Assembly (NCBI RefSeq): GCF_003382285.1
Contig: NZ_QTJR01000011.1
Coordinates: 1 to 64,000 of the forward strand
Direction of reading: 5' to 3'
From: Lysobacter soli
GTDB lineage: Bacteria > Pseudomonadota > Gammaproteobacteria > Xanthomonadales > Xanthomonadaceae
DNA: 64,000 nt
Shown in pieces: positions 10,554-26,838 of the stretch; the first letter of the stretch is position 1, and each line of letters begins with the position of its first letter. The position numbers and the translations under genes were made by a program. Under the pieces are notes generated by a model. That model was not told the origin of the DNA and did no database searches. It was given only the letters and a program-made list of their open reading frames with translations.

Positions 10554-11474
10554 ATGCCCCAGACCGATACCGCGCCCGTCGGCGACCGCGACAAGTTGAC
10601 CCGCTTCCTCATCGAGACCGCCGGCGTACGCGGCGTGCGCGTGCACCTGGCCGATACGTGGACGCAGGTCCGCGAACGCGCCGAGTACCCGCAGGCCGCG
10701 GCCGAACTGCTCGGCGAGGCGCTCGTCGCAGCGGCTGCATTCACCGGCCACGCCAAGGTCGACGGCCGGCTGTCGGTGCAGCTGCGGGGCCATGGCGCGC
10801 TGCGCACCCTGTTTGCCGAGTGCACCGCCGCCGGCACCTTGCGCGGCATCGCGCAGGTCGACGAGGACGCCGGGACCGTTTCGCGCGACCTGCGCGACCT
10901 CGGCGAAGGCGCGCTGCTGGCCATCACCATCGAGAACCCGTCGCTCGATGGACGCGAACCCATGCGCTACCAGGGCCTGGTGTCGCTGGAGTCGGACTCG
11001 CTCGCCGGCGCCTTCGAGGACTACTTCCGCCAGTCCGAGCAGTTGCCGACGAGGCTCCTGCTCGCCGCCGACGAACGGCAGGCCGCGGGGCTGATGTTGC
11101 AGAAGCTGCCGGGGGATCATGGCGACGACGACGGCTGGTCGCGGGTGGGTGCGCTGTTCGACACGCTCACCACGCGCGAGCTGCTGGAATGGTCCGCGGA
11201 TGACCTGCTGACCCGACTGTTCCACGAGGACGGGGTGCAGGTGCTGGGGCAAAGGCCGCTTCGCTTCGCATGCTCGTGTTCGCGCGAGCGGGTGGAGTCG
11301 ATGCTCGTCTCCCTCGGCCAGGCCGAGGCGGAGGCGGCCGTCGAGGCGGCCGGTGGCGCCGCCGAGATCCGTTGCGAGTTTTGCGGACAGAGTTACCGTT
11401 TCGACGCAGAGGAAATCGCTAGCTTGTTCACCGTGGCAACGACGGAACTGGCGGCCCCGGACAGGGTCCAGTGA
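10554..11474 (+). CDS. hslO: Redox-regulated holdase chaperone Hsp33
   Basis: 306 aa. The redox switch cysteines are present as Cys240-x-Cys242 (CSCSRERV) and Cys274-x-x-Cys277 (CEFCGQSY); they bind zinc when reduced and form disulfides on oxidative unfolding, activating the cytosolic chaperone. The N-terminal domain contains LIETAGVRGVRVHLADTW and QLRGHGALRTLF, typical for the family. I chose the ATG in MPQTDTAPVGD because upstream frame sequence overlaps mtgA antisense. Confidence 0.96.
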   Translation: MPQTDTAPVGDRDKLTRFLIETAGVRGVRVHLADTWTQVRERAEYPQAAAELLGEALVAAAAFTGHAKVDGRLSVQLRGHGALRTLFAECTAAGTLRGIAQVDEDAGTVSRDLRDLGEGALLAITIENPSLDGREPMRYQGLVSLESDSLAGAFEDYFRQSEQLPTRLLLAADERQAAGLMLQKLPGDHGDDDGWSRVGALFDTLTTRELLEWSADDLLTRLFHEDGVQVLGQRPLRFACSCSRERVESMLVSLGQAEAEAAVEAAGGAAEIRCEFCGQSYRFDAEEIASLFTVATTELAAPDRVQ

Positions 11475-12439: not shown

Positions 12440-12483
12440 CGTGAGCCGCGGCGCATTGCGCCGAACTCCGGGCACGAAACCAC

Positions 12484-12514
12484 GACGGCCGCGCAACCAG
12501 CGCGGCCGTTTTGC
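12484..12514 (+). terminator. Rho-independent terminator
   Basis: Stem ACGGCCGCGC / GCGCGGCCGT-like with a short loop, followed by TTTTGCGTTT. It ends transcription of the secreted protein gene before the TBDR promoter. Confidence 0.8.
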
Positions 12515-12599
12515 GTTTGATCACAGGCCTGTGGACTCCATACGTCGCAGTACCAAGGCGTACGGATTTCACATGTTTCAAACTGTGCGTTAACGACAC

Positions 12600-12628
12600 T
12601 TTCACTTCTCGCGCAAGCTGGTTAGGAT
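12600..12628 (+). promoter_or_regulatory. TBDR promoter 1: TTTCAC - 17 bp - TAGGAT
   Basis: First of three equivalent promoters. The -35 TTTCAC and -10 TAGGAT are 17 bp apart, preceded by a GTTAACGACAC block that is also repeated in the other two. The expected transcript begins just before a conserved CCTTGCCG. Confidence 0.75.
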
Positions 12629-12635
12629 CCGGTTG

Positions 12636-12713
12636 CCTTGCCGATTTTGGCGTTCCGTTTGACGCCACCGGCCAGGTCCCATGGGATCCATCGACTCACG
12701 CTTGGAGAGAGAG
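12636..12713 (+). promoter_or_regulatory. Conserved TBDR leader, copy 1
   Basis: Between promoter and start codon lie blocks shared with copies 2 and 3: CCTTGCCG, TTGGCGT, a TTTG-C-CC block, and the palindrome TCCCATGGGA (12678-12687). The ATG within the palindrome (12681) is in frame with the receptor and would add MGSIDSRLERE to its N-terminus; the preferred start at 12714 has GGAGAGAGAG in front. Function is not known to me. Confidence 0.65.
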
Positions 12714-15698
12714 ATGAACTTGAAGACCACCCCGCTCCGCGACGCGATCGTCTATTCGCTCGCGGTCGGCGCTACCGCGGTCGCCAGTACCGGCATCGCC
12801 GTCGCACAGGAACAGCAGCAGACCACCACGCTCGACCGCATCGAAGTCACCGGCTCGCGCATCCGCCAGGTCGACATCGAGACCGAAGCGCCGGTGCTCA
12901 CCATCAGCCGCGCGGACATCGAACAGCAGGGCTTCCAGTCGGTCGCCGACATCCTGCAGAACATTTCCGCCGTCGGCGCCCCGGCCATCAGCCGCGCCTC
13001 CCCGCTCAGCGCGGGCGAGAACGTCGGCGGCCAGTTCATCAGCATGCGCAACCTCGGTACGACGCGCACGCTGATCCTGGTCAACGGCAAGCGCCTGGGC
13101 ATCAGCACCAGCGGCCTGCAGGACGTGTCGCTCATCCCGACCGTCGCGGTCGAGCGCGTCGAAGTGCTGAAGGACGGCGCCTCGTCGATCTACGGCTCGG
13201 ACGCCATCGCCGGCGTGGTGAACATCATCACGCGCTCGAACTTCGAAGGTGCCACGGTCGATGCGTACTACGGCCAGTACAGCGAAGGCGACGGCGAGAC
13301 CACGCGCGCTTCGGGCATCCTCGGCTTCACCGGTGACCGCGGCTCGCTGACGGCGGCCGTCGAATACCGCAAGGAAGAGGAAGTCTTCGCACGCGATCGC
13401 GAGTATTCGGCGTACCCGCAGAGCTACAAGCACCCGACCCGCGGCTGGACCACGGCTTCGCAGTGGGGCCAGGTGACCGACGCCCGCAACGCCACGACCA
13501 ACCCGTTCGGCGTGGGCAACCTGGTGCTCAACGAGGGTGCGGACTGGCGCCGCATCGCCAACTACCACACGCAGAACACGAACACCGGCACTACGGCTGC
13601 AGATCCGAACGGTTCCCCGGTCGACAAGAGCAACACCAACCAGCAGACGCACCTGCGCACGCCGCTGGAGAGCAAGTCGCTGTTCGTCAACGGCCTGTTC
13701 GACATCACCGAGAACGTGCGCTTCCGCGGTGACGTGCTGTACACCGACCGCACCTCCGAGCGCCAGGTCGCCGGCTATCCGTTCCAGAGCGCCTCGGCCG
13801 GCGTCGTGCCGGGCGGCTTCAAGATGGCCGCGAACAGCTACTACAACCCGGTCGGCACCTGGCACGGCTTCGCCAATCCGCACGCGGTGAACTTCACCCG
13901 TCGTACGTGGGAAGTGCCGCGCGTCGACCAGCCGCAGTCCACCACGTGGCGTTTCGCCGCGGCCGTGGAAGGCAGCTTTGGCGTCGCCGACCGCATGTTC
14001 GACTGGGACGTCAACTACCTCTACAACAACAACAAGGTCCACCAGGAAAACTACGGCAACCTCAACATCGAGCGCGCCCGTCAGTCGACCGGTGCCTCGT
14101 TCCTGGACACCGACGGCGTGGTCAAGTGCGGCACGCCGGGCAACGTGATCCTGGGCTGCGTGCCGTGGAACCCGTTCATCCCGTACGGTCGCGTCGGCGA
14201 CGGCGGCCTCACCGGCAACCAGGCCCTGCAGGACTGGCTGTTCCAGCGCCTGAATTCGTCGGGCGAAACTGAAACGACGGTGTACGCGGCGAACCTGAGC
14301 GGTTCGCTGGCGACGTTGCCGGCGGGCGACCTGGGCGTGGCGGTGGGCGTCGAAAACCGCAAGGAAGAAGGTCGCTTCATTCCCGACGCGCAGGCGGTCA
14401 CGGGCAACTCGACCACGCTCGCGAGCGGTCCGACGCAGGGCAGCTACTCGGTGGACGAAATCTACGCCGAGTTGTTCATCCCGGTGCTGGCCGACCTGCC
14501 GGGCGCGAAGGAACTGAGCTTCAGCCTCGCCACCCGCTACTCGGACTACGACACCTTCGGCGACACGCTCAACAGCAAGTTCGGCTTCAAGTGGAAGCCG
14601 CTGGATTCGCTGCTGTTCCGTGGTACCTACGCTGAAGGCTTCCGTGCGCCGACGATCGCCGACCTGTACGGTGGCGGCTCGCAGACGTTCTCGTTCTTCA
14701 CCGACCCGTGCGACACGAGCTTCGGTGCGGCGGCGTCCAACCCGACCGTTCGTGCTGCGTGCGGCACCCAGGCGCCGGTGGTTCCGAACCCGAACACGTT
14801 CCGTCAGCTGGCGCAGGGCTTCACCCCGGCGACCGCGGCCGGCGCACAGTCGCCGGTGGCGTTCTTCTCCGGTTCGAACCCGAACCTGATCCCGGAAACC
14901 TCGGAGTCCAAGACGCTGGGCACCGTGTGGAGCCCGGGCTTCATCGAAGGCCTGAACATCAGCCTGGACTGGTGGAACATCCGCATCGACGACACCATCG
15001 TCGCCGACTCGCCGACGCAGATCCTCAACGACTGCTACATCCAGAACGATCCGACGCGCTGCGCACTGTTCACGCGTGACGCGGCCCAGGGTTACGTCAA
15101 CAACCTCGCCTTCGCCAGCATCAACGCCGGCTACCGCGAGGCCGAGGGCTGGGACATGGACCTGAGCTACCGTCTGGCGACGGAAGGCTTCGGTACGTTC
15201 AACCTGTCCTGGCAGACGACGTACACCACCAAGGACGAGATCAAGACCGACACCAACCCGGCGACCAAGGCGCAGCAGCTGGTCGGCTACGCGACCTCGC
15301 CGGGCTTCGTGGGTACCTTCCGCGTCCGCTCCAACACCAGCCTGACGTGGGATCTGGGCATGTGGAGCGCGACCTGGGGCATGCGCTACTACTCGGGCAT
15401 GAAGGAAACCTGCTTGTCGGCCGCGCTGTTCCCGGATGAGTGCTCCAATCCGGAGTTCGCCGTCGCCAACCCGGTGCCGGCACAGGCGCGCGCGATCAAC
15501 GAGATCGGCTCCAACACCTTCCACGACCTGGAATTCCGCTGGAAGGCGCCGTGGAACGCGACCGTCGCGGTCGGTGCGAACAACGTGTTCGACCACCAGG
15601 GTCCGGTGGTGTACAGCCAGCCGAACGCGAACGTGTCCTACCAGGGCCAGTTCGACATCGGTCGTTTCTTCTACATGAAGTACCAGCAGCGCTTCTGA
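12714..15698 (+). CDS. TonB-dependent receptor 1 (TonB-Xanth-Caul type)
   Basis: 994 aa outer-membrane transporter. Signal peptide residues 1-32 (MNLKTTPLRDAIVYSL... ending AVAQ), then the plug domain with LDRIEVTGSRIR, LKDGASSIYGSDAIAGVVNI, and a 22-strand barrel ending in FFYMKYQQRF with the terminal aromatic residue required for BAM insertion. No N-terminal STN signalling domain, so surface signalling to an anti-sigma factor is unlikely. Substrate is unknown. It begins like receptors 2 and 3 (LKTTxLRDAI) but is clearly more divergent from them than they are from each other. It has its own promoter and terminator. Confidence 0.93.
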   Translation: MNLKTTPLRDAIVYSLAVGATAVASTGIAVAQEQQQTTTLDRIEVTGSRIRQVDIETEAPVLTISRADIEQQGFQSVADILQNISAVGAPAISRASPLSAGENVGGQFISMRNLGTTRTLILVNGKRLGISTSGLQDVSLIPTVAVERVEVLKDGASSIYGSDAIAGVVNIITRSNFEGATVDAYYGQYSEGDGETTRASGILGFTGDRGSLTAAVEYRKEEEVFARDREYSAYPQSYKHPTRGWTTASQWGQVTDARNATTNPFGVGNLVLNEGADWRRIANYHTQNTNTGTTAADPNGSPVDKSNTNQQTHLRTPLESKSLFVNGLFDITENVRFRGDVLYTDRTSERQVAGYPFQSASAGVVPGGFKMAANSYYNPVGTWHGFANPHAVNFTRRTWEVPRVDQPQSTTWRFAAAVEGSFGVADRMFDWDVNYLYNNNKVHQENYGNLNIERARQSTGASFLDTDGVVKCGTPGNVILGCVPWNPFIPYGRVGDGGLTGNQALQDWLFQRLNSSGETETTVYAANLSGSLATLPAGDLGVAVGVENRKEEGRFIPDAQAVTGNSTTLASGPTQGSYSVDEIYAELFIPVLADLPGAKELSFSLATRYSDYDTFGDTLNSKFGFKWKPLDSLLFRGTYAEGFRAPTIADLYGGGSQTFSFFTDPCDTSFGAAASNPTVRAACGTQAPVVPNPNTFRQLAQGFTPATAAGAQSPVAFFSGSNPNLIPETSESKTLGTVWSPGFIEGLNISLDWWNIRIDDTIVADSPTQILNDCYIQNDPTRCALFTRDAAQGYVNNLAFASINAGYREAEGWDMDLSYRLATEGFGTFNLSWQTTYTTKDEIKTDTNPATKAQQLVGYATSPGFVGTFRVRSNTSLTWDLGMWSATWGMRYYSGMKETCLSAALFPDECSNPEFAVANPVPAQARAINEIGSNTFHDLEFRWKAPWNATVAVGANNVFDHQGPVVYSQPNANVSYQGQFDIGRFFYMKYQQRF

Positions 15699-15721
15699 TC
15701 CATCCACGGATGGAGCAATCG

Positions 15722-15751
15722 AGCGGCCCCGAAAGGGGCCGCTTTTTTTTT
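15722..15751 (+). terminator. Rho-independent terminator of TBDR 1
   Basis: AGCGGCCCC-GAAA-GGGGCCGCT stem followed by nine T residues. Very strong. The same GGCCCC/GGGGCC core is used after TBDR 2 and TBDR 3. Confidence 0.93.
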
Positions 15752-15911
15752 GCCCCGTGCAAGCCGCACTGCCCGCCTGCCGCTCCGCCGCGAGCACGAA
15801 AGCGGCTCTGCCACCCCGGCGGATTCGGCGGGGCCTTTCGATGTGCCGATTCAGGCTTCCGGCCTTGCTGGTTTCACTTGTCACGATCCGATAACCGGTA
15901 GTTAACGCGTC

Positions 15912-15940
15912 TTTCACTTTTCTGTTGAGGGGGTTAGGAT
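15912..15940 (+). promoter_or_regulatory. TBDR promoter 2: TTTCAC - 17 bp - TAGGAT
   Basis: Same hexamers and the same 17-bp spacing as promoter 1, preceded by GTTAACGCGTC. Confidence 0.75.
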
Positions 15941-15949
15941 CGGGTTAAG

Positions 15950-16029
15950 CCTTGCCGTTTTTGGCGTCTGATTTGACTCCGTCGGCTGGGCCCCATGGGA
16001 AGTACCACCTGAGTTTTTCGGAGAGAGAG
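15950..16029 (+). promoter_or_regulatory. Conserved TBDR leader, copy 2
   Basis: CCTTGCCG, TTGGCGT, TTTGACTCC and CCCATGGG (15992-15999) in the same order as the other leaders. Here the ATG in the palindrome (15995) opens a five-codon ORF, MGSTT then stop, out of frame with the receptor. A GGAGAGAGAG ribosome site precedes the receptor ATG. Confidence 0.65.
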
Positions 16030-19014
16030 ATGACCTTGAAGACCACCCAGCTCCGCGACGCGATCACCTTCGCGCTCGCCGTGGGCTCTACTGCGGCGGC
16101 CGGTACCGGCATCGCCTTCGCCCAGGAAGGCGAGAAAGCCACGACCCTCGATCGCATCGAGGTGACGGGTTCGCGCATCAAGCGCGCCGACATCGAAACG
16201 TCCCAGCCGATCTTCTCGCTGAGCCGCGACGACATCACGGCGCAGGGCCTGACCTCCGTCGGCGACGTGATCCAGAACATCACCGCCAACGGTTCGACGC
16301 TCAACAGCACCTTCAACAACGGCGGTAACGGCGAGACGCGCGTCAGCCTGCGCAACCTCGGTTCCAACCGCACCCTGGTGCTGGTCAACGGTCGTCGCTG
16401 GATCGGCGGCACGGGCCTGGGTGGCGCGGTCGACCTCAACACCATCCCGTCGGCAGCCGTCGAGCGCATCGAAATCCTGAAGGACGGCGCCTCCACCATC
16501 TACGGTTCGGACGCCATCGCCGGCGTGGTGAACGTGATCCTGCGCCAGAACTTCGAAGGCGCCGAAGCCAACGCCTACATCGGCCAGTTCGACAAGGGCG
16601 ACGGCGAGCGCCAGGCGTACGACTTCACCATCGGCACGAGCGGCGACCGCTTCTCGGCGATGCTGGGCTACGGCTACGTCAAGGAGGAGCCGGTCATGGC
16701 CGGCGACCGCTACATCTCGAAGGAGCCGACCTACACGACCGGCAACTTCTTCGGTTCGGGCACCAGCCCGAATGGTCGCTTCGCTCTGTGCCCGGGTGGT
16801 TACAACATCACCACCAACACCTGCACCGGCGGCCAGACCAACTTCAATGGCGGCGCTGGCACCTTCACCTACGACGGCGCAGGCACCCCGGCCCGTCCGT
16901 ACGTGCCGGGCGTGGATGCGTACAACTTCGCTCCGGAAAACTACCTGCTGACGCCGCAGGAGCGTCGTTCGGTGTTCGGTAACGCGTCGGTCGACATCAC
17001 CGACAACGTCCGCTTCAAGACGACCGTCACCTACAACGAGCGCGTTTCCGAGCAGCTGCTGGCCGCCATGCCGGTCGTGCTGGGCTCCGCCCCGGGCGCG
17101 ACGCCGCTGGCGCAGGACGTCTTCATCAGCCGCAACAGCATCTACAACCCGTTCGGTGCCGACGTCTCGCGCATCAACCGCCGCATCACCGAGACCGGCG
17201 GTCGTTCGTTCAACCAGGACGTCCGCACGTTCGCGATGAACGCCGGCTTCGAAGGCACGCTGAACTTCGGCGACAACTACTACGACTGGGAAGCGGGCTA
17301 CTTCCGCGGCCAGAACAAGGCGAACAACACCACCTACGGTCTGTTCAACCTGATCGCGCTGGGCCAGGCGCTCGGCCCGTCGTTCCGCGACGCCGACGGC
17401 ACCCCGCGCTGCGGCACGGCGACGGCTCCTATCGCCGGCTGCGTTCCGATGAACATGCTGGGCGGCGTGGGCGGCATCACGCAGGACATGCTCGACTTCG
17501 CCAGCTTCACCGCGCATGACGAGTACAGCTACACGCAGAAGAACTACTACGCGAACTTCAGCGGCGACCTGTTCGACCTGCCGGCTGGCGCGCTGGGCTT
17601 CTCGGTTGGTGCCGAACACCGCACCGAAGAGGGCTACGATTCGCCGGACGCGCTGATCAACTCGGGCAACACCACCGGCAACGCGCGTACCGCGACCGCC
17701 GGCGGTTACAAGGTCGACGAGGCCTACATCGAACTCGCGATCCCGGTCCTGGCCGACCAGCCGTTCGCCAAGCTGCTCGACTTCTCGGTGGCCACGCGCT
17801 ACTCGGATTACTCGAACTTCGGCGACACGCTCAACAGCAAGTTCGGTTTCCGCTGGAAGCCGATCGAAGACCTGATGGTTCGCGGCAACTGGTCGGAGGG
17901 CTTCCGCGCTCCGTCGATCGCCGAGCTGTTCGCCGGTCAGGCCGACTCGTTCCCGAGCCTGGCCGATCCCTGCAACACGGCCAACTACAACACGCAGACC
18001 ACCGTCGGTCAGGCGCAGTGCCGTGCCGAAGGCGTTCCGGCCGGTGGCTACCGCCAGGACAGCGCGCAGATCCGCATCACGGTCGGCGGCAACCCGAACC
18101 TGCTGCCTGAGAAGTCCGAGTCGTACACATTCGGCTTCGTGTACAGCCCGCACTTCGTCGAAGGCCTGGACGTCTCGCTGGACTGGTGGAAGATCACGCT
18201 GGAAGACCAGATCACCACCATCGGTGGTGCGACGATCATCCAGCAGTGTCTGGATTCCGGCGGCGCCGGTCCGACCTGCGATCTGTACACGCGTAATCCG
18301 GCCGGCGACATCAGCACGCTGCTCAACACCACCACGAACATCGGTGGTACGCGCGTTGAGGGTTACGACCTGACCGTCGGCTACAGGCTGCCGGAAACCC
18401 CGTGGGGCAAGTTCAGCTTCACGTGGGATACCACGTACCTGGCCGAGCAGATGGACGACATCGACGGCGACGGCCGTTACGGCGAGGACAACCAGCGTGA
18501 GCCGGCGATCGGCCAGCCGTTGAACTACAACGAAGGCGGCAACCTGGTCGGCGAATACGCGCAGAACGACAACAAGTGGCGCATCCGTTCGAACCTGGCC
18601 ACCCGTTGGGAAATGGGCGACTTCGGCGCGACCTGGAACATGCGCTTCTACTCGCGTCAGGACGAAGTCTGCGATCCGGGCTTCGAAGAGTACGGCTTCG
18701 GTTACCTCTGCACCGAGACCGACCGCTTCGTCGGCGTCCCGACGGACGCGAACGCCAATGGCGTCTGGGACGGCACGGCCGGCGGCGACACGATCGAGTC
18801 GCAGAAGGAAAGCCAGCACCACATCGGCGGCACGACGTACCACGACGTGAGCGTTTACTGGAACGCGCCGTGGAACGCCAAGATCTCGGTCGGTATCAAC
18901 AACGTGTTCGACAAGAACCCGCCGATCGTGCTCAACGCCTTCGCCAACACGTTCGACCCGCAGTACGAGGTCCCGGGCCAGTTCTTCTACATGCGCTACT
19001 CGCAGAAGTTCTGA
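16030..19014 (+). CDS. TonB-dependent receptor 2 (TonB-Xanth-Caul type)
   Basis: 994 aa. Signal peptide to about residue 32 (ends AFAQ), plug domain with LDRIEVTGSRIKRADIETSQ and LKDGASTIYGSDAIAGVVNV, barrel ending FFYMRYSQKF. Closely related to receptor 3 over its whole length, with long identical runs in plug and barrel, so the two arose by tandem duplication. Near residue 810 an acidic loop DIDGDGRYGED and further on DANANGVWDG look like EF-hand type calcium loops, placed between barrel strands. Start chosen at the ATG after GGAGAGAGAG; upstream frame is leader. Confidence 0.93.
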   Translation: MTLKTTQLRDAITFALAVGSTAAAGTGIAFAQEGEKATTLDRIEVTGSRIKRADIETSQPIFSLSRDDITAQGLTSVGDVIQNITANGSTLNSTFNNGGNGETRVSLRNLGSNRTLVLVNGRRWIGGTGLGGAVDLNTIPSAAVERIEILKDGASTIYGSDAIAGVVNVILRQNFEGAEANAYIGQFDKGDGERQAYDFTIGTSGDRFSAMLGYGYVKEEPVMAGDRYISKEPTYTTGNFFGSGTSPNGRFALCPGGYNITTNTCTGGQTNFNGGAGTFTYDGAGTPARPYVPGVDAYNFAPENYLLTPQERRSVFGNASVDITDNVRFKTTVTYNERVSEQLLAAMPVVLGSAPGATPLAQDVFISRNSIYNPFGADVSRINRRITETGGRSFNQDVRTFAMNAGFEGTLNFGDNYYDWEAGYFRGQNKANNTTYGLFNLIALGQALGPSFRDADGTPRCGTATAPIAGCVPMNMLGGVGGITQDMLDFASFTAHDEYSYTQKNYYANFSGDLFDLPAGALGFSVGAEHRTEEGYDSPDALINSGNTTGNARTATAGGYKVDEAYIELAIPVLADQPFAKLLDFSVATRYSDYSNFGDTLNSKFGFRWKPIEDLMVRGNWSEGFRAPSIAELFAGQADSFPSLADPCNTANYNTQTTVGQAQCRAEGVPAGGYRQDSAQIRITVGGNPNLLPEKSESYTFGFVYSPHFVEGLDVSLDWWKITLEDQITTIGGATIIQQCLDSGGAGPTCDLYTRNPAGDISTLLNTTTNIGGTRVEGYDLTVGYRLPETPWGKFSFTWDTTYLAEQMDDIDGDGRYGEDNQREPAIGQPLNYNEGGNLVGEYAQNDNKWRIRSNLATRWEMGDFGATWNMRFYSRQDEVCDPGFEEYGFGYLCTETDRFVGVPTDANANGVWDGTAGGDTIESQKESQHHIGGTTYHDVSVYWNAPWNAKISVGINNVFDKNPPIVLNAFANTFDPQYEVPGQFFYMRYSQKF

Positions 19015-19040
19015 TCGGTACCAACGGCACTTGCAACACA

Positions 19041-19071
19041 ACTACGGCCCCGAAAGGGGCCGTAGTTTTTT
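19041..19071 (+). terminator. Rho-independent terminator of TBDR 2
   Basis: ACTACGGCCCC-GAAA-GGGGCCGTAGT stem of 11 bp followed by a T run. Confidence 0.93.
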
Positions 19072-19127
19072 GCGAGCGTTTCAGAAATGAAACAATGCGC
19101 GTTCAGACTGTTGAAGATTAACAACAC

Positions 19128-19156
19128 TTTAAGTATTCGCTCCGCGGGTCTACCAT
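19128..19156 (+). promoter_or_regulatory. TBDR promoter 3: TTTAAG - 17 bp - TACCAT
   Basis: Third copy of the shared promoter at identical 17-bp spacing, with weaker hexamers (TTTAAG, TACCAT) and the upstream ATTAACAACAC block. Likely weaker or more dependent on an activator than promoters 1 and 2 (inference). Confidence 0.6.
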
Positions 19157-19165
19157 CGGGCCCGA

Positions 19166-19245
19166 CCTTGCCGGACTTGGCGTGGTTGTTTGCTCCGCCC
19201 GGCGTGGTTCCCATGGGAACAACTTAGACCGACTTGGAGAGAGCG
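19166..19245 (+). promoter_or_regulatory. Conserved TBDR leader, copy 3
   Basis: CCTTGCCG, TTGGCGT, TTTGCTCC and a 14-bp perfect palindrome GTTCCCATGGGAAC (19207-19220). Its ATG (19213) opens a four-codon ORF, MGTT then stop, in frame with but upstream of the receptor. The distance from this ATG to the receptor start is 33 bp, as in copy 1. Confidence 0.65.
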
Positions 19246-22200
19246 ATGATCTTGAAGACAACAAAGCTCCGGGACGCAATTCGCGTAACGCTCGCACTGG
19301 GCACCACGACTGCGGCCGGCATCGGCGCAGCACAGGCCCAGGACCCTGCTCCCGCCCCCGCCCAGGAAGCGACGACCCTCGACCGCATCGAAGTCACCGG
19401 TTCGCGCATCAAGCGCGCCGACATCGAGACTTCGCAGCCGATCTTCTCGCTCAGTCGCGATGACATCACCGCGCAGGGCCTCACTTCCGTCGGCGACGTG
19501 ATCCAGAACATCACCGCCAACGGTTCCACGCTCAACACGACCTTCAACAACGGCGGCAACGGCGACACCGGCGTCAGCCTGCGCAACCTCGGCGCGAACC
19601 GGACGCTGGTGCTGGTCAACGGCCGCCGCTGGGTCGGCGGCGCATCCGGCACCGGCCTGGGTGGCCAGGTCGACCTCAACTCGATCCCGACCGCGGCCGT
19701 CGAACGCGTCGAAGTGCTGAAGGATGGCGCCTCGGCGATCTACGGTTCCGATGCGATCGCAGGCGTGGTCAACATCATCCTGCGCCAGAACTTCGAAGGC
19801 GCCGAAGCCAACGCCTACATCGGCCAGTTCGACAAGGGCGACGGATTCCGCCAGTCGTACGACTTCACCATCGGCAGCACGTCCGACCGCTTCGCGGTGA
19901 TGCTGGGCTTCGGCTACGTCAAGGAAGATCCGGTGATGGCGGGCGACCGCTACATCTCCAAGGAGCCGATCTACACCACCGGTGCGGCGCTCGGCGGCAG
20001 CTCGACGACGCCGAACGGCAACTTCTCGGTGCGCTTCGGCGAGTGCTTCACGGACCCGACCGATCCCGACACCGCCACGCGCTGCCGTCCGAACGGCACG
20101 CCCGGCAGCTTCACCTACGATCCGGGTGCAGGCGCGGCGAACTGGCGCAACTTCACCGGCGCCGACATCTACAACTTCGCGCCCGACAACTACCTGCTGA
20201 CGCCGCAGGAACGTCGGTCGGTCTTCGGCAACGCGTCGGTGGACATCACCGACAACGTGCGCTTCAAGACCACGCTCACTTACAACGAGCGGCAATCCGA
20301 ACAGTTGCTCGCGGCGATGCCGATCACGCTGGGCGTGCCGGTCACCGGCACCAACGCCGGCAACGTCGTCATCAGCGCCGACAGCATCTACAACCCGTTC
20401 GGCGAAGACATCGACTGGGTGCAGCGCCGTGCAGTGGAAACCGGCGGTCGTCGCTTCAGCCAGGACGTGCGCACCTTCGCGATGAACGCCGGCTTCGAGG
20501 GCACGCTCAACTTCGCCGACAAGTACTACGACTGGGAAGCGGGCTACTTCTACGGTCGCAACAAGGCCAACAACACCACCAACGGCCTGTTCAACGTGAT
20601 CTCGCTGGGCAATGCGCTGGGACCGTCGTTCATCGATGACGAAGGCGTGCCGACCTGCGGAACGCCCGATTCGCCGATCGCCGGCTGCGTGCCGATGAAC
20701 ATGCTGGGCGGCGTGGGCAGCATGACGCAGGACATGCTCGACTACGCGACCTTCGTCGCGCACGACGAGTACAGCTACACGCAGAAGACCTACTACGCCA
20801 ACATCGGCGGCGACCTGTTCGACCTGCCCGGCGGCCCGCTCGGCTTCTCAATCGGCCTCGAACACCGTACCGAGGAGGGCTACGACTCGCCCGATGCGCT
20901 GATCAACTCCGGCAACACCACCGGTAACGCACGCACCGCCACCAACGGCGGTTACGACGTGGACGAGGCGTACCTCGAACTCGCCATCCCGGTGCTCGCC
21001 GACGTGCCCGGCGCGAAGCTGCTCGATTTCTCGGTCGCCACGCGTTATTCCGACTACAGCAACTTCGGCGACACGCTCAACAGCAAGTTCGGTTTCCGCT
21101 GGAAGCCGATCGAAGACCTGCTGGTCCGCGGCAACTGGTCCGAAGGTTTCCGCGCGCCGTCGATCGCCGAACTGTTCGCCGGCCAGGCCGACTCGTTCCC
21201 GCAGGTCAGCGATCCCTGCAACCAGGCCAACTTCGGCAACCAGACGCCGCCGGCGCAGGCACGCTGCCAGGCCGAAGGCGTACCCGCGGGCGGCTACGCA
21301 CAGAACAACACGCAGATCCGCATCACCGTCGGCGGCAATCCGAACCTGCTGCCGGAGAAGGCCGAATCGACCACGGCGGGCCTGGTCTACAGTCCGAGCT
21401 TCGTCGAAGGACTCGACGTTTCGCTGGACTGGTGGAAGATCAAGATCGAGGACGCCATCACCACCGTCGGCGCGACCGCGATCATCCAGCAGTGCATCGA
21501 CTCCGGCGGCACCGGCGCGACCTGCGATCTGTACAGCCGCCAGCCCGGTGGCGAAATCCTCACCCTGCTCAACACCACGACCAACATCGGCGGCACGAAG
21601 GTCGAAGGCTGGGATATGACGGTGAGCTATCGTCTGCCCGAGAACTCGTGGGGCAAGTTCAGCTTCACGTGGGACACGACCTACCTGTCGGAATTCCTCA
21701 ACGACAACGACGGCGACGGCATCTACGGCGAGGACATCTTCAAGGAACCCGCGATCGGCTCGCCGATGGCGGCGAACGAAGGTGGCAACCTCGTCGGCGA
21801 ATACGACGGTCCGAACCTGCTCAACTACTGGCGCATCCGTTCGAACCTCGCGGCACGCTGGGAGAAGGGCGACTGGGGCGCGACGTGGAACGTGCGCTAC
21901 TACTCCGACCAGACCGAGCCTTGCCAGACCTTCGAGGATTACGGCTACGGTTGGCTGTGCACCACCACCGACCGCTTCCGCAGCATCCCGACCGACGCCA
22001 ACGGCAACGGCACCTGGGACGGTACGGCCGGCGGCGACGACTTCACCGTCGTCGCGGCGAACGAGCACCATGTGGGCGCCTCGACCTTCCATGACGCGAG
22101 CCTCTACTGGAACGCGCCGTGGAATGCGAAGGTGACCGTCGGCATCAACAACATCTTCGACAAGAACCCGCCGATCGCGTACACCGCCTTCGCCAACTCG

Positions 22201-22263
22201 TTCGATCCGCAGTACGACGTGCCGGGACGCTTCTTCTACTTCCGGTATTCGCAGAAGTTCTGA
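19246..22263 (+). CDS. TonB-dependent receptor 3 (TonB-Xanth-Caul type)
   Basis: 1005 aa. Signal peptide ends near AQAQ (residue 29), short Pro/Ala linker DPAPAPAQEA, plug with LDRIEVTGSRIKRADIETSQ, barrel ending FFYFRYSQKF. Near-duplicate of receptor 2; differences cluster in extracellular-loop-like insertions, for example around residues 248-300. The acidic loop DNDGDGIYGED near residue 820 matches the DIDGDG loop of receptor 2. A TTG 12 bp upstream extends the frame, but the ATG has a well-placed GGAGAG. Substrate unknown; duplication suggests widened or diversified substrate range. Confidence 0.93.
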   Translation: MILKTTKLRDAIRVTLALGTTTAAGIGAAQAQDPAPAPAQEATTLDRIEVTGSRIKRADIETSQPIFSLSRDDITAQGLTSVGDVIQNITANGSTLNTTFNNGGNGDTGVSLRNLGANRTLVLVNGRRWVGGASGTGLGGQVDLNSIPTAAVERVEVLKDGASAIYGSDAIAGVVNIILRQNFEGAEANAYIGQFDKGDGFRQSYDFTIGSTSDRFAVMLGFGYVKEDPVMAGDRYISKEPIYTTGAALGGSSTTPNGNFSVRFGECFTDPTDPDTATRCRPNGTPGSFTYDPGAGAANWRNFTGADIYNFAPDNYLLTPQERRSVFGNASVDITDNVRFKTTLTYNERQSEQLLAAMPITLGVPVTGTNAGNVVISADSIYNPFGEDIDWVQRRAVETGGRRFSQDVRTFAMNAGFEGTLNFADKYYDWEAGYFYGRNKANNTTNGLFNVISLGNALGPSFIDDEGVPTCGTPDSPIAGCVPMNMLGGVGSMTQDMLDYATFVAHDEYSYTQKTYYANIGGDLFDLPGGPLGFSIGLEHRTEEGYDSPDALINSGNTTGNARTATNGGYDVDEAYLELAIPVLADVPGAKLLDFSVATRYSDYSNFGDTLNSKFGFRWKPIEDLLVRGNWSEGFRAPSIAELFAGQADSFPQVSDPCNQANFGNQTPPAQARCQAEGVPAGGYAQNNTQIRITVGGNPNLLPEKAESTTAGLVYSPSFVEGLDVSLDWWKIKIEDAITTVGATAIIQQCIDSGGTGATCDLYSRQPGGEILTLLNTTTNIGGTKVEGWDMTVSYRLPENSWGKFSFTWDTTYLSEFLNDNDGDGIYGEDIFKEPAIGSPMAANEGGNLVGEYDGPNLLNYWRIRSNLAARWEKGDWGATWNVRYYSDQTEPCQTFEDYGYGWLCTTTDRFRSIPTDANGNGTWDGTAGGDDFTVVAANEHHVGASTFHDASLYWNAPWNAKVTVGINNIFDKNPPIAYTAFANSFDPQYDVPGRFFYFRYSQKF

Positions 22264-22288
22264 TCCTTCCCCGCGAAGGTTCATTCGC

Positions 22289-22315
22289 AGCGGCCCCGCA
22301 AGGGGCCGCCGCTTT
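22289..22315 (+). terminator. Terminator of TBDR 3
   Basis: CGGCCCC-GCAA-GGGGCCG hairpin, same core as the two preceding terminators but with a poor T tract (CGCTTTATC). Confidence 0.7.
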
Positions 22316-22372
22316 ATCCGGGACGCGCCGACCGGGCTAAACTCGGCATTCCCAACGCGCCGCAGCGATCGC

Positions 22373-23032
22373 ATGAGCTTCGAGATCAGCCCCGTCTTCT
22401 CGGTCCCCTTCGCGCAGGACATGCTGCCCGACGCCGCGGCGCTCAACCCGCAATTACGGGCGCTGATCCTGGCGCGCGAATCCGAAGGCGCGCGCTACGC
22501 CAATCCGAATCCGTCGCTTCAGCAGCAACCGGGCGTGTTCGAAAGCGACTTCAACCTCTTCGCCTGGCCGGACGCCTGCATCCAGCAGCTTCGCCAGTTC
22601 TGCTGGACGGCGCTCGGCCGCACGATCGCCGATCTGAACGGCTACAGCGCCGAAGAAATGAAGCGGCTGCAGATCTTCTCGCACACGTGGTTCCACGTGA
22701 CGCGCAAAGGAGGGTTCACGATCAACCACACGCATCCGATGGCCTCGTGGTCCGGCGTGTACTGCGTGGATCCGGGCACGACGCCGGCCGATCGCCCCGA
22801 TTCGGGCGTGCTGCGCTTCCACAATCCGCACCATTACAGCAACTACTTCCTCGACGCCGGCAACGCACGGCTGCGTGCTCCGTATCACCACGGCACGTGG
22901 AACGTCCGCTTCCAGGCCGGGCAACTTGTTTTGTTCCCGTCCTGGTTGCAGCACGAAGTGATGCCGTTCTTCGGGGACGACGAACGCATCACCATCGCGT
23001 TCAACTGCTGGTTCGGGATGAAGAACGGCTGA
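22373..23032 (+). CDS. Putative 2OG-Fe(II) oxygenase (TIGR02466 / 2OG-FeII_Oxy_5 type)
   Basis: 219 aa. Core motifs INHTHPMASWSGVYCVD (His119, His121), DSGVLRFHNPHHY, and LVLFPSWLQHEVMPF (His194), then DERITIAFNCWF, match the TIGR02466 oxygenase family, whose substrates are unknown. Fe ligands are assigned by analogy with the family. The gene follows TBDR 3 after 109 bp and a hairpin, and is closed by its own strong terminator, so it may be a separate unit or receive read-through from the receptor. Such oxygenases often sit near TBDRs in Xanthomonadales and Caulobacterales. Confidence 0.8.
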   Translation: MSFEISPVFSVPFAQDMLPDAAALNPQLRALILARESEGARYANPNPSLQQQPGVFESDFNLFAWPDACIQQLRQFCWTALGRTIADLNGYSAEEMKRLQIFSHTWFHVTRKGGFTINHTHPMASWSGVYCVDPGTTPADRPDSGVLRFHNPHHYSNYFLDAGNARLRAPYHHGTWNVRFQAGQLVLFPSWLQHEVMPFFGDDERITIAFNCWFGMKNG

Positions 23033-25257: not shown

Positions 25258-26838
25258 TTAAGGGGACGCCTGCGGCTCGCGCCAGGGCGCCAGGGCCTCG
25301 AGCAGCGGCCCCAGCTTGTCGACGTACGGGGCCCAGGCCGCCTTGCGGTCCTTGATGATGCCTCCGCGCATCTGCGGGCTGCTCGCGGTGGCCACGGCGC
25401 CGGGGCGGTCGAGCGTGGTCGCGGCCGTGTCCCACGGCAGCTCGCAGAAGGCGAGGACCCGGCGCATCGCGCCCTCCGGATCGGCGACCAGCTCGTCGTA
25501 GCGCACGTCCAGGATCCGGCCCGGCATCACCGCGTGCCAGTGCGCCATCAGGCCGCGGTACTGGCCGTACCACTCGGCCAGCTCGCGCTGGTCGTAGGAG
25601 AAGGTGTTCACGTCGGAGAACATCGTGCGCAGGTTCGAGAAGCACGTGTCGACCGGGTCGCGCACCATGTGCAGGATCCGCGCATGCGGCAGCGCGCGGG
25701 CGATGAAACCCAGGTGGAGGAAGTTCGACGGCAGCTTTTCGGTGAGCACCGCCCTGCCCTTCGCGCGCGCCGCCGTGTGTTCGAGGAAACGACGCCCGAG
25801 CGCGGCGTAATCGACCTTGTCCGCCCGGCGCACGAGTTCGGCGTCGAGCACGCCGCGGCTGCGGTAATCGGCGAAGTAACGCATCTGCGAGGCGAACGAA
25901 TACGTCTCGCCGCCGTCGGTGACGTCCGGATGCCCGCCGAGCAACTGTTCCAGGAGCGTGCTGCCGGAGCGGTGCATGCCGACGACGAACACCGGACGGT
26001 ACGGCGCCGGTTCGTCTGCATGCGCATGCCCTGCGGCGACGAACCCGGCATCGCACAGCTTCGCCAGGCCTTCGTACATGCGTCGCGCATCGGTGCGATC
26101 GTGCGGCGACAGCTGGCGCTTGGTGCGGCAGGCATGTTCCAGCGCCTGCCACGACTCGTCGTACGCGCCGATGTCGTGGGCCTCGTTGTGCACGGCGTAG
26201 GCGAGGTACACGCGGCTTTCGCTGCCGGCCGGGACGCGCGAGATGAGCGCCTTCATGCGCGCGACGTGGTTGTGCTCCGGCGTCTGCTTGCGCAGGCGCG
26301 AGAGCACCCAATGCGCCTGCGCGTACGTCGGCAGGATCGCGATGCACTGTTCGAGTTCGTCTTCCGCCTGCTCCATCTGGCCGAAGAACATGTGCACCAC
26401 CCCGCGGAAATAGCGCGCCGGCGCGTGGCGGGGATCGCGTTGCACGGCGAGGTCGAGCAGCTGCATCGCGAGCTCGTTCTCGCCGCTGGTGCTGACGAGC
26501 ATCGCCACTTCGGTGAGCCATGCCGCCGAGCGACGTTCCTGCCAGCGAGAATGCGCCAGGCACTCCATCAGCAGCGCAGGCTCGTTGAACAGCCGCAGCG
26601 CACGCGCGAGGTTGAGCACGGCCTCGTCGCCCTGCGGGCGCGCGGCGAGCGCGCGCACGGCGTACTCGCGCGAATCGCGATAGCGCCCCAGCGACAGCGC
26701 CATGCGGGAGGCACGCAGCATCGCCATGACGTGGTTCGGATCGTGTTCGAGCACGCCGTCGTACGCCGTCAGCGCGGCCGCCCATTGGCCCTGTTTCGCA
26801 TAGGTCTCGGCGCGCTGCCAGAGCGTTGCGGCGTTCAT
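25258..26838 (-). CDS. TPR-sulfotransferase fusion protein
   Basis: 526 aa. N-terminal tetratricopeptide repeats cover about residues 1-230 (for example AETYAKQGQWAAALTAYDGVLEHDPNH and ALSLGRYRDSREYAVRALAARP). A sulfotransferase domain follows from about residue 275, with the PAPS loop VFVVGMHRSGSTLLEQLL and the 3'-phosphate site HMVRDPVDTCFSNL. TPR-sulfotransferases are common near TBDRs and oxygenases in Xanthomonadales; tyrosylprotein sulfotransferases share the fold. The start overlaps the stop of the upstream gene by 4 bp, so they are coupled. Confidence 0.9.
   Translation of the reverse strand: MNAATLWQRAETYAKQGQWAAALTAYDGVLEHDPNHVMAMLRASRMALSLGRYRDSREYAVRALAARPQGDEAVLNLARALRLFNEPALLMECLAHSRWQERRSAAWLTEVAMLVSTSGENELAMQLLDLAVQRDPRHAPARYFRGVVHMFFGQMEQAEDELEQCIAILPTYAQAHWVLSRLRKQTPEHNHVARMKALISRVPAGSESRVYLAYAVHNEAHDIGAYDESWQALEHACRTKRQLSPHDRTDARRMYEGLAKLCDAGFVAAGHAHADEPAPYRPVFVVGMHRSGSTLLEQLLGGHPDVTDGGETYSFASQMRYFADYRSRGVLDAELVRRADKVDYAALGRRFLEHTAARAKGRAVLTEKLPSNFLHLGFIARALPHARILHMVRDPVDTCFSNLRTMFSDVNTFSYDQRELAEWYGQYRGLMAHWHAVMPGRILDVRYDELVADPEGAMRRVLAFCELPWDTAATTLDRPGAVATASSPQMRGGIIKDRKAAWAPYVDKLGPLLEALAPWREPQASP

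Follow-up and report, generated by a model that had tools for sequence, protein, structure and literature searches.

RppH requires a few unpaired nucleotides at the 5' end of a message, and the stem-loop in the ompA 5' untranslated region of Escherichia coli lies at or near the extreme 5' end of an outer-membrane beta-barrel mRNA, with the ribosome site downstream. At fpvA-type pyoverdine-receptor loci of Pseudomonas, a fixed locus carries TonB-dependent receptors that are highly divergent between close relatives, and the extended signal peptide region of autotransporters places a conserved n-region motif before a variable exported protein. A review describes 5' stem-loops as protective and the ompA message as stable and growth-rate-dependent, and its reference list includes ompA-leader papers by Emory and Belasco (PMC7509114). 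Here we analyze a 64,000-nt stretch of Lysobacter soli DNA (the window; assembly GCF_003382285.1, contig NZ_QTJR01000011.1, positions 1 to 64,000, forward strand) in which three tandem TonB-dependent receptor genes each follow a leader predicted to begin with a conserved RNA hairpin. Like the ompA stem-loop, this hairpin lies near the predicted 5' end of the message for an outer-membrane receptor, with the ribosome site behind it. Unlike it, the element is one bulged two-helix hairpin, widespread in one family and at a locus of receptor replacement, and both its 5' end and its stabilizing role are predictions. Riboswitch and attenuator leaders in Rfam also place conserved structure before transport genes; the leader described here differs from them in having no Rfam match, no conserved aptamer sequence and no conserved alternative fold. 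As at fpvA-type loci, divergent TonB-dependent receptors occupy a fixed locus, but here a promoter-like block, the hairpin and a signal-peptide motif are constant before each variant. That motif, like its autotransporter counterpart, opens a variable protein; it differs in reading K-x-x-x-LRDA(I/V) and in belonging to TonB-dependent receptors.

Direct reading and alignment of the three upstream regions bore out the preliminary description of this DNA, which had reported TTAAC, a series of ordered blocks and a promoter-like register before each receptor. TTAAC and a spacing of exactly 17 bp between the -35-like and -10-like hexamers occur in all three copies. The hexamers had been called the same throughout; they are TTTCAC and TAGGAT in copies 1 and 2 but TTTAAG and TACCAT in copy 3. 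Behind the -10-like hexamer stand CCTTGCCG, TTGGCGT and CCCATGGGA, in that order, and then the ribosome site GGAGAGAG. The distance from -10 to ATG is 85, 89 and 89 nt in copies 1, 2 and 3, near the 86-90 bp given earlier. The ordered block pattern has three matches in the 3.95-Mb genome, all at these receptors (reversed control, 0), and a covariance model returns the same three at E <= 2e-12, the next best match having E 0.17. A scan of 12450-22450 for sigma-70 consensus promoters (>=9/12 hexamer bases) found none, so the names -35 and -10 rest on position and conservation.

Relatives of L. soli supplied leaders for comparison. A covariance model of the 58-nt leader core (R1) matched 64 of 197 family genomes and 21 of 54 genera, and a promoter-plus-leader model built on 62 sequences (R2) matched 108 of the 197 sampled family genomes and 33 of the 54 genera. 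The 88 R1 matches were reduced to 83 by removing duplicates (L042, L050 and L052), a partial match (L124) and a weak second match (L121), and then to 80 by setting aside three that do not precede such a receptor (L116, L118 and L123). Merging one identical leader left the 79 unique leaders of the first set; the second, divergent set excludes L160, which coincides in place with L109. Despite the lack of a sigma-70 consensus match, the register from TTTNAN to TANNAT is kept among leaders. TTAAC stands exactly, at a constant distance from the -10-like hexamer, in 73 of the 79 unique leaders, and the TTT of the -35-like hexamer is in register with the -10-like hexamer in 77; TANNAT itself is present by construction, because the leaders were cut by that pattern.

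The conserved start of the leader is a cis-acting RNA structure whose pairing is maintained by compensatory change. Its first ~44 nt form a helix, P1 (CCUUGCCG pairing with CGGC..GG, in most cases interrupted by a mismatch or bulge), which encloses a second helix, P2 (GGCGUC-loop-GACUCC), leaving a U-rich stretch on the 5' side of the hairpin unpaired. Judged by eye, P1/P2 is the minimum-energy fold in 45 of 46 representatives (<80% identical). When arms were swapped among leaders, native combinations averaged -17.9 versus -15.1 for chimeric ones, and none of 100,000 permutations reached the native mean. Splitting +1..+44 without structural knowledge gave -18.29 kcal/mol for native and -15.24 kcal/mol for permuted leaders (z -7.3, n=40), and the divergent leaders outside model building (R2) gave -16.46 versus -11.24 kcal/mol (z -13.4, n=49). 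P2 alone reached z -5.9 to -8.9, and controls were flat (promoter, z 0.2 and -1.3; coding start, z 0.6). The cis-acting RNA proposed in the preliminary description is thus upheld by compensatory pairing. Pair counts among relatives' leaders, the kind of comparison that description had called for, agree: on a sequence alignment with the whole-leader structure, 15 of 23 pairs show double changes, and the covariation score is 0.185 versus 0.140 for shuffled and 0.05-0.09 for slid alignments. Kinship among leaders can inflate such counts; the flat controls on the same genomes argue against it as their explanation.

Outside this hairpin, no pairing with a native advantage emerged. The swap test was flat over the last 47 nt of the leader (z 0.3 and -0.7), and on that ground and on pair counts P3 and P4 were rejected as covarying helices; double changes fall in three of four P3 pairs, and in P4 the outer four pairs have none and the fifth has them in two sequences. 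A native advantage was likewise lacking for a kissing interaction between loop and ribosome site (z 1.4 and -0.9) and for an alternative 5' hairpin (z 0.6 to 1.9); both were rejected. Accessibility of the ribosome site equals that of shuffled leaders (0.39 versus 0.38; 78 leaders, L057 being skipped at a contig end), which rejects a ribosome-site on/off switch. Rfam 15 returned no match in the window above the gathering cut-off, consistent with the earlier remark that this is not a described riboswitch class; at E<=10 the interval 12450-19300 had eight matches, all under gathering scores, the best being sbrA (E 0.03) at the terminator after copy 1.

The position of the hairpin relative to the predicted mRNA start was assessed in 139 leaders, +1 being taken as the seventh base after the -10-like hexamer; L210, L196 and L223, in which the -10 is not readable as in the others or an insert is present, were excluded from this and the swap tests. 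Pairing starts 0-2 nt from the predicted +1 in 126 of the 139, compared with 1503 of 2780 shuffles (54%), and within 4 nt in 134, compared with 71%. Hairpins that combine a terminal position (<=4 nt) with a length of 36 nt or more are present in 125 of the 139 leaders, as against 35% of shuffles.

The most likely reading, to which we give about an even chance, is that the hairpin is an ompA-like, 5'-terminal stem-loop that stabilizes receptor mRNAs at a locus of receptor exchange. Each receptor gene would form its own transcription unit, in which the promoter-like block (TTAACGACACTTTAAT, its -35-like hexamer and TANNAT 17 bp apart) would start the mRNA. The first ~44 nt of that message would fold into one static bulged stem-loop preceded by 0-2 unpaired nucleotides, with the GGAGAGAG ribosome site a short way behind it. 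Because the stem-loop would leave no free 5' end for RppH and RNase E to act on, the receptor message would be long-lived; genes of both families score above cut-offs in the genome, two for RNase E/G and one for RppH. Units at the preferred locus (hslO, XOO1806-family gene, receptors) would be replaced or duplicated between relatives, for a reason we infer below, each retaining its own copy of the hairpin. The 139 leaders, most with a hairpin and many unrelated in hairpin sequence, offer a comparative set for what 5'-terminal mRNA protection requires.

Several observations weigh against this stabilizing stem-loop. The predicted start derives from sequence position, the promoter-like block departs from the sigma-70 consensus, and the 0-2 nt overhang by itself is only moderately beyond shuffles (91% versus 54%). 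One of the 46 representatives, L073, lacks the P1 fold by eye; full leaders folded singly have ordinary energies (six leaders, z -0.3 to -1.8); and the 89-nt leader of copy 3 folded alone prefers a different fold, its first 56 nt from +1 folding as the family hairpin. RNAalifold gave no structure on the alignment of 79 leaders, and on 17 close sequences its covariation term was almost nil (-0.15). This weakness may be explained by scarce variation in close relatives and poor sequence alignment of distant ones. Finally, CCTTGCC, CCATGGG and GGAGAG are conserved in the first set beyond what a structure-only stabilizer needs. CCTTGCC occurs in 49 of 79 first-set leaders and 3 of 60 divergent ones, CCATGGG in 63 of 79 and 2 of 60, and GGAGAG, in the ribosome-site stretch, in 79 of 79 and 55 of 60. 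A leader peptide or upstream open reading frame starting at the CCATGGG ATG was rejected, as neither its frame nor its stop is constant across 19 leaders, in some of which it runs on into the receptor. In copy 1 an ATG at 12681, inside the CCCATGGGA block, is in frame with the receptor, a frame not kept in relatives; gene callers may therefore start receptor 1 11 codons early.

The module of promoter-like block and leader is widespread in one family. A first pattern search had given 25 matches, in 21 of 149 family genomes; six of these matches, which have a 63-nt span and come from six genomes (L019-L024), were set aside as false by spacing and sequence. With R2 placing the module in 33 of 54 family genera, a single recent duplication confined to these three copies, the outcome that would have undercut the preliminary description, is rejected; receptor copies 1 and 2 share 46.7% identity, and copies 2 and 3 share 76.3%. 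In an order-wide sample 34 of 250 genomes match, all inside the family except G225 (E 8.7e-7), and in a class-wide sample 3 of 369 do, all inside the family. Counts from these large samples are lower bounds, since stricter filters apply there. The match in G225, which belongs to another family of the same order, precedes an open reading frame whose signal peptide is related (L185) and could stem from horizontal transfer. An exact scan for TTAACGACNCTTTAATT in named genomes found at least 120 stretches. Among the 80 listed, 26 come by title from Lysobacteraceae genera or from Lysobacteraceae/Lysobacterales metagenome-assembled genomes: Lysobacter, Luteimonas, Vulcaniibacterium, Pseudoxanthomonas, Arenimonas, Xanthomonas massiliensis, Stenotrophomonas maltophilia, and one assembly each of Lysobacteraceae and Lysobacterales. 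Among the matches listed, a leader match of 40-142 bits is present in each of the 26 (one cut by a contig end), and the other 54 score at most 23.1 bits. Titles and abstract openings in a largely open-access literature (few subscription papers, no preprints) yielded no description of the leader or locus. As far as Rfam 15 and the literature searched show, the leader is an undescribed RNA element.

Within genomes, the module belongs mostly to one conserved locus. Upstream of it stands an XOO1806-family gene at 98 of 143 loci (on the same strand in 98 of 98 matches) and the C-terminus of a receptor, as a tandem copy, at 26 more, together 124 of 143; the remaining 19 have neither within the ~1.5 kb fetched. 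Both hslO and the XOO1806-family gene stand on the left in 20 of 20 larger regions inspected, which were chosen from long-contig genomes as illustration and not as a sample. The receptor regulon suggested in the preliminary description is not supported, and a regulon scattered through the genome is rejected: of the 36 Plug-domain matches in the genome only three have the leader, and the module keeps mostly to the one locus. In 12 genus genomes TTAACGACNCTTTMA turns up 11 times, in 10 of the genomes; 10 of these matches are at the module (7 by position, 3 on inspection). The eleventh (L127) is a promoter-like TTAACGACCCTTTAA at G000:C3:76437-76451, ~336 nt upstream of an OmpR-family response regulator. 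It occurs in the window's own genome alone, with no second such site among the 12 genus genomes, has no leader match and is probably due to chance.

Comparison of the loci shows, at the level of sequence, receptor bodies being replaced while the promoter-like start and hairpin stay. XOO1806-family proteins are at least 75% identical in 551 locus pairs (94 loci), and receptor bodies are less than 45% identical in 272 of these, some low values possibly arising where translations are truncated or in the wrong frame (in the tree, L076 and L080 occupy about a third of the columns). Two pairs with long open frames are clear: the XOO1806-family proteins of L163 and L171 have an identity of 0.99 versus 0.34 for the receptors, and those of L178 and L183 0.99 versus 0.36. 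At L375 and L376, flanks that are 97.2% and 96.7% identical enclose ~6.7 kb of extra DNA in one of the two; the one match left between the flanks, of 66.6% over 649 columns, runs from promoter into receptor start, and the two units have different leader sequences and the same hairpin shape. At L379 and L380 the match on the left, of 87.3%, extends into the start of the receptor, and identity across the right flank is 98.7%. It is possible, though we lean somewhat against it, that the locus of hslO and the XOO1806-family gene in Lysobacteraceae acts as a receptor slot taking whole exchangeable units of promoter, hairpin, LRDAI start and divergent receptor, swapped under phage, bacteriocin or ligand pressure, with the hairpin ensuring high and uniform output. 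A locus with wholesale receptor replacement and expression signals of the same form would make the ecology of TonB-dependent receptor turnover testable.

The signal-peptide motif accompanies the leader. LR[DESN][AS] occurs in 79 of the 80 kept R1 loci with a readable start (L057 lies at a contig end) and in 58 of 63 divergent loci, the other five being one cut and four different. Of the 36 Plug matches in the genome 30 were fetched, and only the three leader-bearing receptors among them have LRDAI. The starts of these three (12714-12750, 16030-16066 and 19246-19282) share K-x-T-x-x-LRDAI, which is found with the leader in most relatives. The label TonB-Xanth-Caul, given to the receptors earlier, is not supported: copy 3 scores 36.8 bits against the TIGR01782 cut-off of 310, copies 1 and 2 are not listed, and the proteins are receptors with Plug and barrel domains. 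The body of copy 1 is 52% and 49% identical to two module-less paralogues, 46% to copy 2 and 42% to copy 3, and in a tree (63 chosen rows, quick method, several long branches) those two paralogues fall among module-bearing receptors. Two leaderless paralogues, L353 (C25) and L348 (C7), share another 5' block, CATAACAGATATCTGGAGAGAGA, together with the signal peptide MxHRNxRTAxRVG, and a second promoter-leader-signal class may exist.

Among other roles for the hairpin, we regard as unlikely that it is a binding platform for a protein, RNase III or an Hfq/ProQ-type factor that adjusts receptor translation or decay to a signal. A bulged two-helix shape kept with little sequence constraint would suit such a platform, as would the conserved GGA-containing ribosome-site stretch downstream (the GGAGAG counts above), and a study of lesR overexpression in L. 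enzymogenes reports one receptor, not matched to this locus, whose mRNA rose while its protein fell (PMC4886534). Against it, accessibility of the ribosome site is not unusual, the last 47 nt show no native advantage, and no candidate protein was found, none having been searched for. Distinctly less probable is a trans-acting small RNA whose pairing with CCCATGGGA or CUUGGAGAGAG would repress or activate the receptors. In the first set the sequence of these stretches is conserved, with no native advantage in the swap test, and a report on Xanthomonas describes lower mRNA of the receptor XCV3572, also not matched to this locus, in one medium when the small RNA sX13 is missing (PMC3771888). CCATGGG, however, nearly disappears from divergent leaders and is absent from two named ones, X. 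massiliensis and S. maltophilia PC315.

A further alternative, which we hold to be improbable, is that promoter, leader and signal peptide persist merely as a homology arm for receptor recombination, the RNA itself being inactive. This would account for units that differ between near-identical flanks and for a module that precedes receptors of different clades, copy 1 being nearer to module-less paralogues than to copy 2. An arm needs sequence identity, yet the hairpin diverges with its pairing kept, and exchanged units bring differing leader sequences of the same shape; compensatory changes thus disfavor this explanation. Least probable of all, and very much so, is a riboswitch for the receptor ligand, even though a structured leader of no known family precedes transporter-like genes. 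No sequence-conserved pocket spans the family, pairing is kept while hairpin sequence diverges, and neither an alternative fold nor a ribosome-site switch is conserved, which makes a riboswitch unlikely. Receptors behind hairpins of the same kind can moreover be only 34-36% identical, and such receptors would probably not share a ligand.

Table 1. Coordinates of the receptor locus and its leader elements in the window.
Feature	Position	Strand	Basis or remarks
hslO (Hsp33)	10554..11474	+	PF01430; next conserved neighbor beyond the XOO1806-family gene
XOO1806-family protein, 286 aa	11579..12439	+	NF052276; conserved left-hand neighbor of the receptors
Terminator-like hairpin after XOO1806-family gene	12484-12510		Terminator scan
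Copy 1 promoter-like block	12590..12628	+	TTAACGAC, TTTCAC 12600-12605, 17 bp, TAGGAT 12623-12628
Copy 1 5'-terminal bulged hairpin, P1 enclosing P2	12635..12677	+	Minimum-energy fold, arm swap; predicted +1 12635
Copy 1 leader 3' part	12678..12713	+	CCCATGGGA block and ribosome site GGAGAGAGAG
TonB-dependent receptor copy 1, 994 aa	12714..15698	+	Pfam Plug and barrel; signal peptide with LRDAI
Terminator-like hairpin after receptor copy 1	15721-15744		Terminator scan
Copy 2 promoter-like block	15902..15940	+	-35-like TTTCAC, -10-like TAGGAT
Copy 2 5'-terminal hairpin	15949..15991	+	Minimum-energy fold, arm swap; predicted +1 15947
Copy 2 leader 3' part	15992..16029	+	CCCATGGGA and ribosome site
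TonB-dependent receptor copy 2, 994 aa	16030..19014	+	Plug and barrel domains
Copy 3 promoter-like block	19118..19156	+	-35-like TTTAAG, -10-like TACCAT
Copy 3 5'-terminal hairpin	19164..19209	+	Folding, arm swap; predicted +1 19163
Copy 3 leader 3' part	19210..19245	+	CCCATGGGA and ribosome site
TonB-dependent receptor copy 3, 1005 aa	19246..22263	+	Plug and barrel domains
Leader core blocks of copies 1/2/3	12636-12686 / 15950-16000 / 19166-19218		

The terminator scan yielded nine terminator-like hairpins in total, no more than shuffled sequence yields. The last ~55 residues of receptor copy 2 weakly match the end of the NF052276 profile (E 0.0005, below cut-off), hinting that the XOO1806-family gene may share the receptors' C-terminal outer-membrane signal. 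Downstream of the receptors lie genes for a 2OG-Fe(II) oxygenase (22373-23032) and a TPR sulfotransferase (25258-26838), which recur at the locus in several relatives and may act on the receptor or its ligand.

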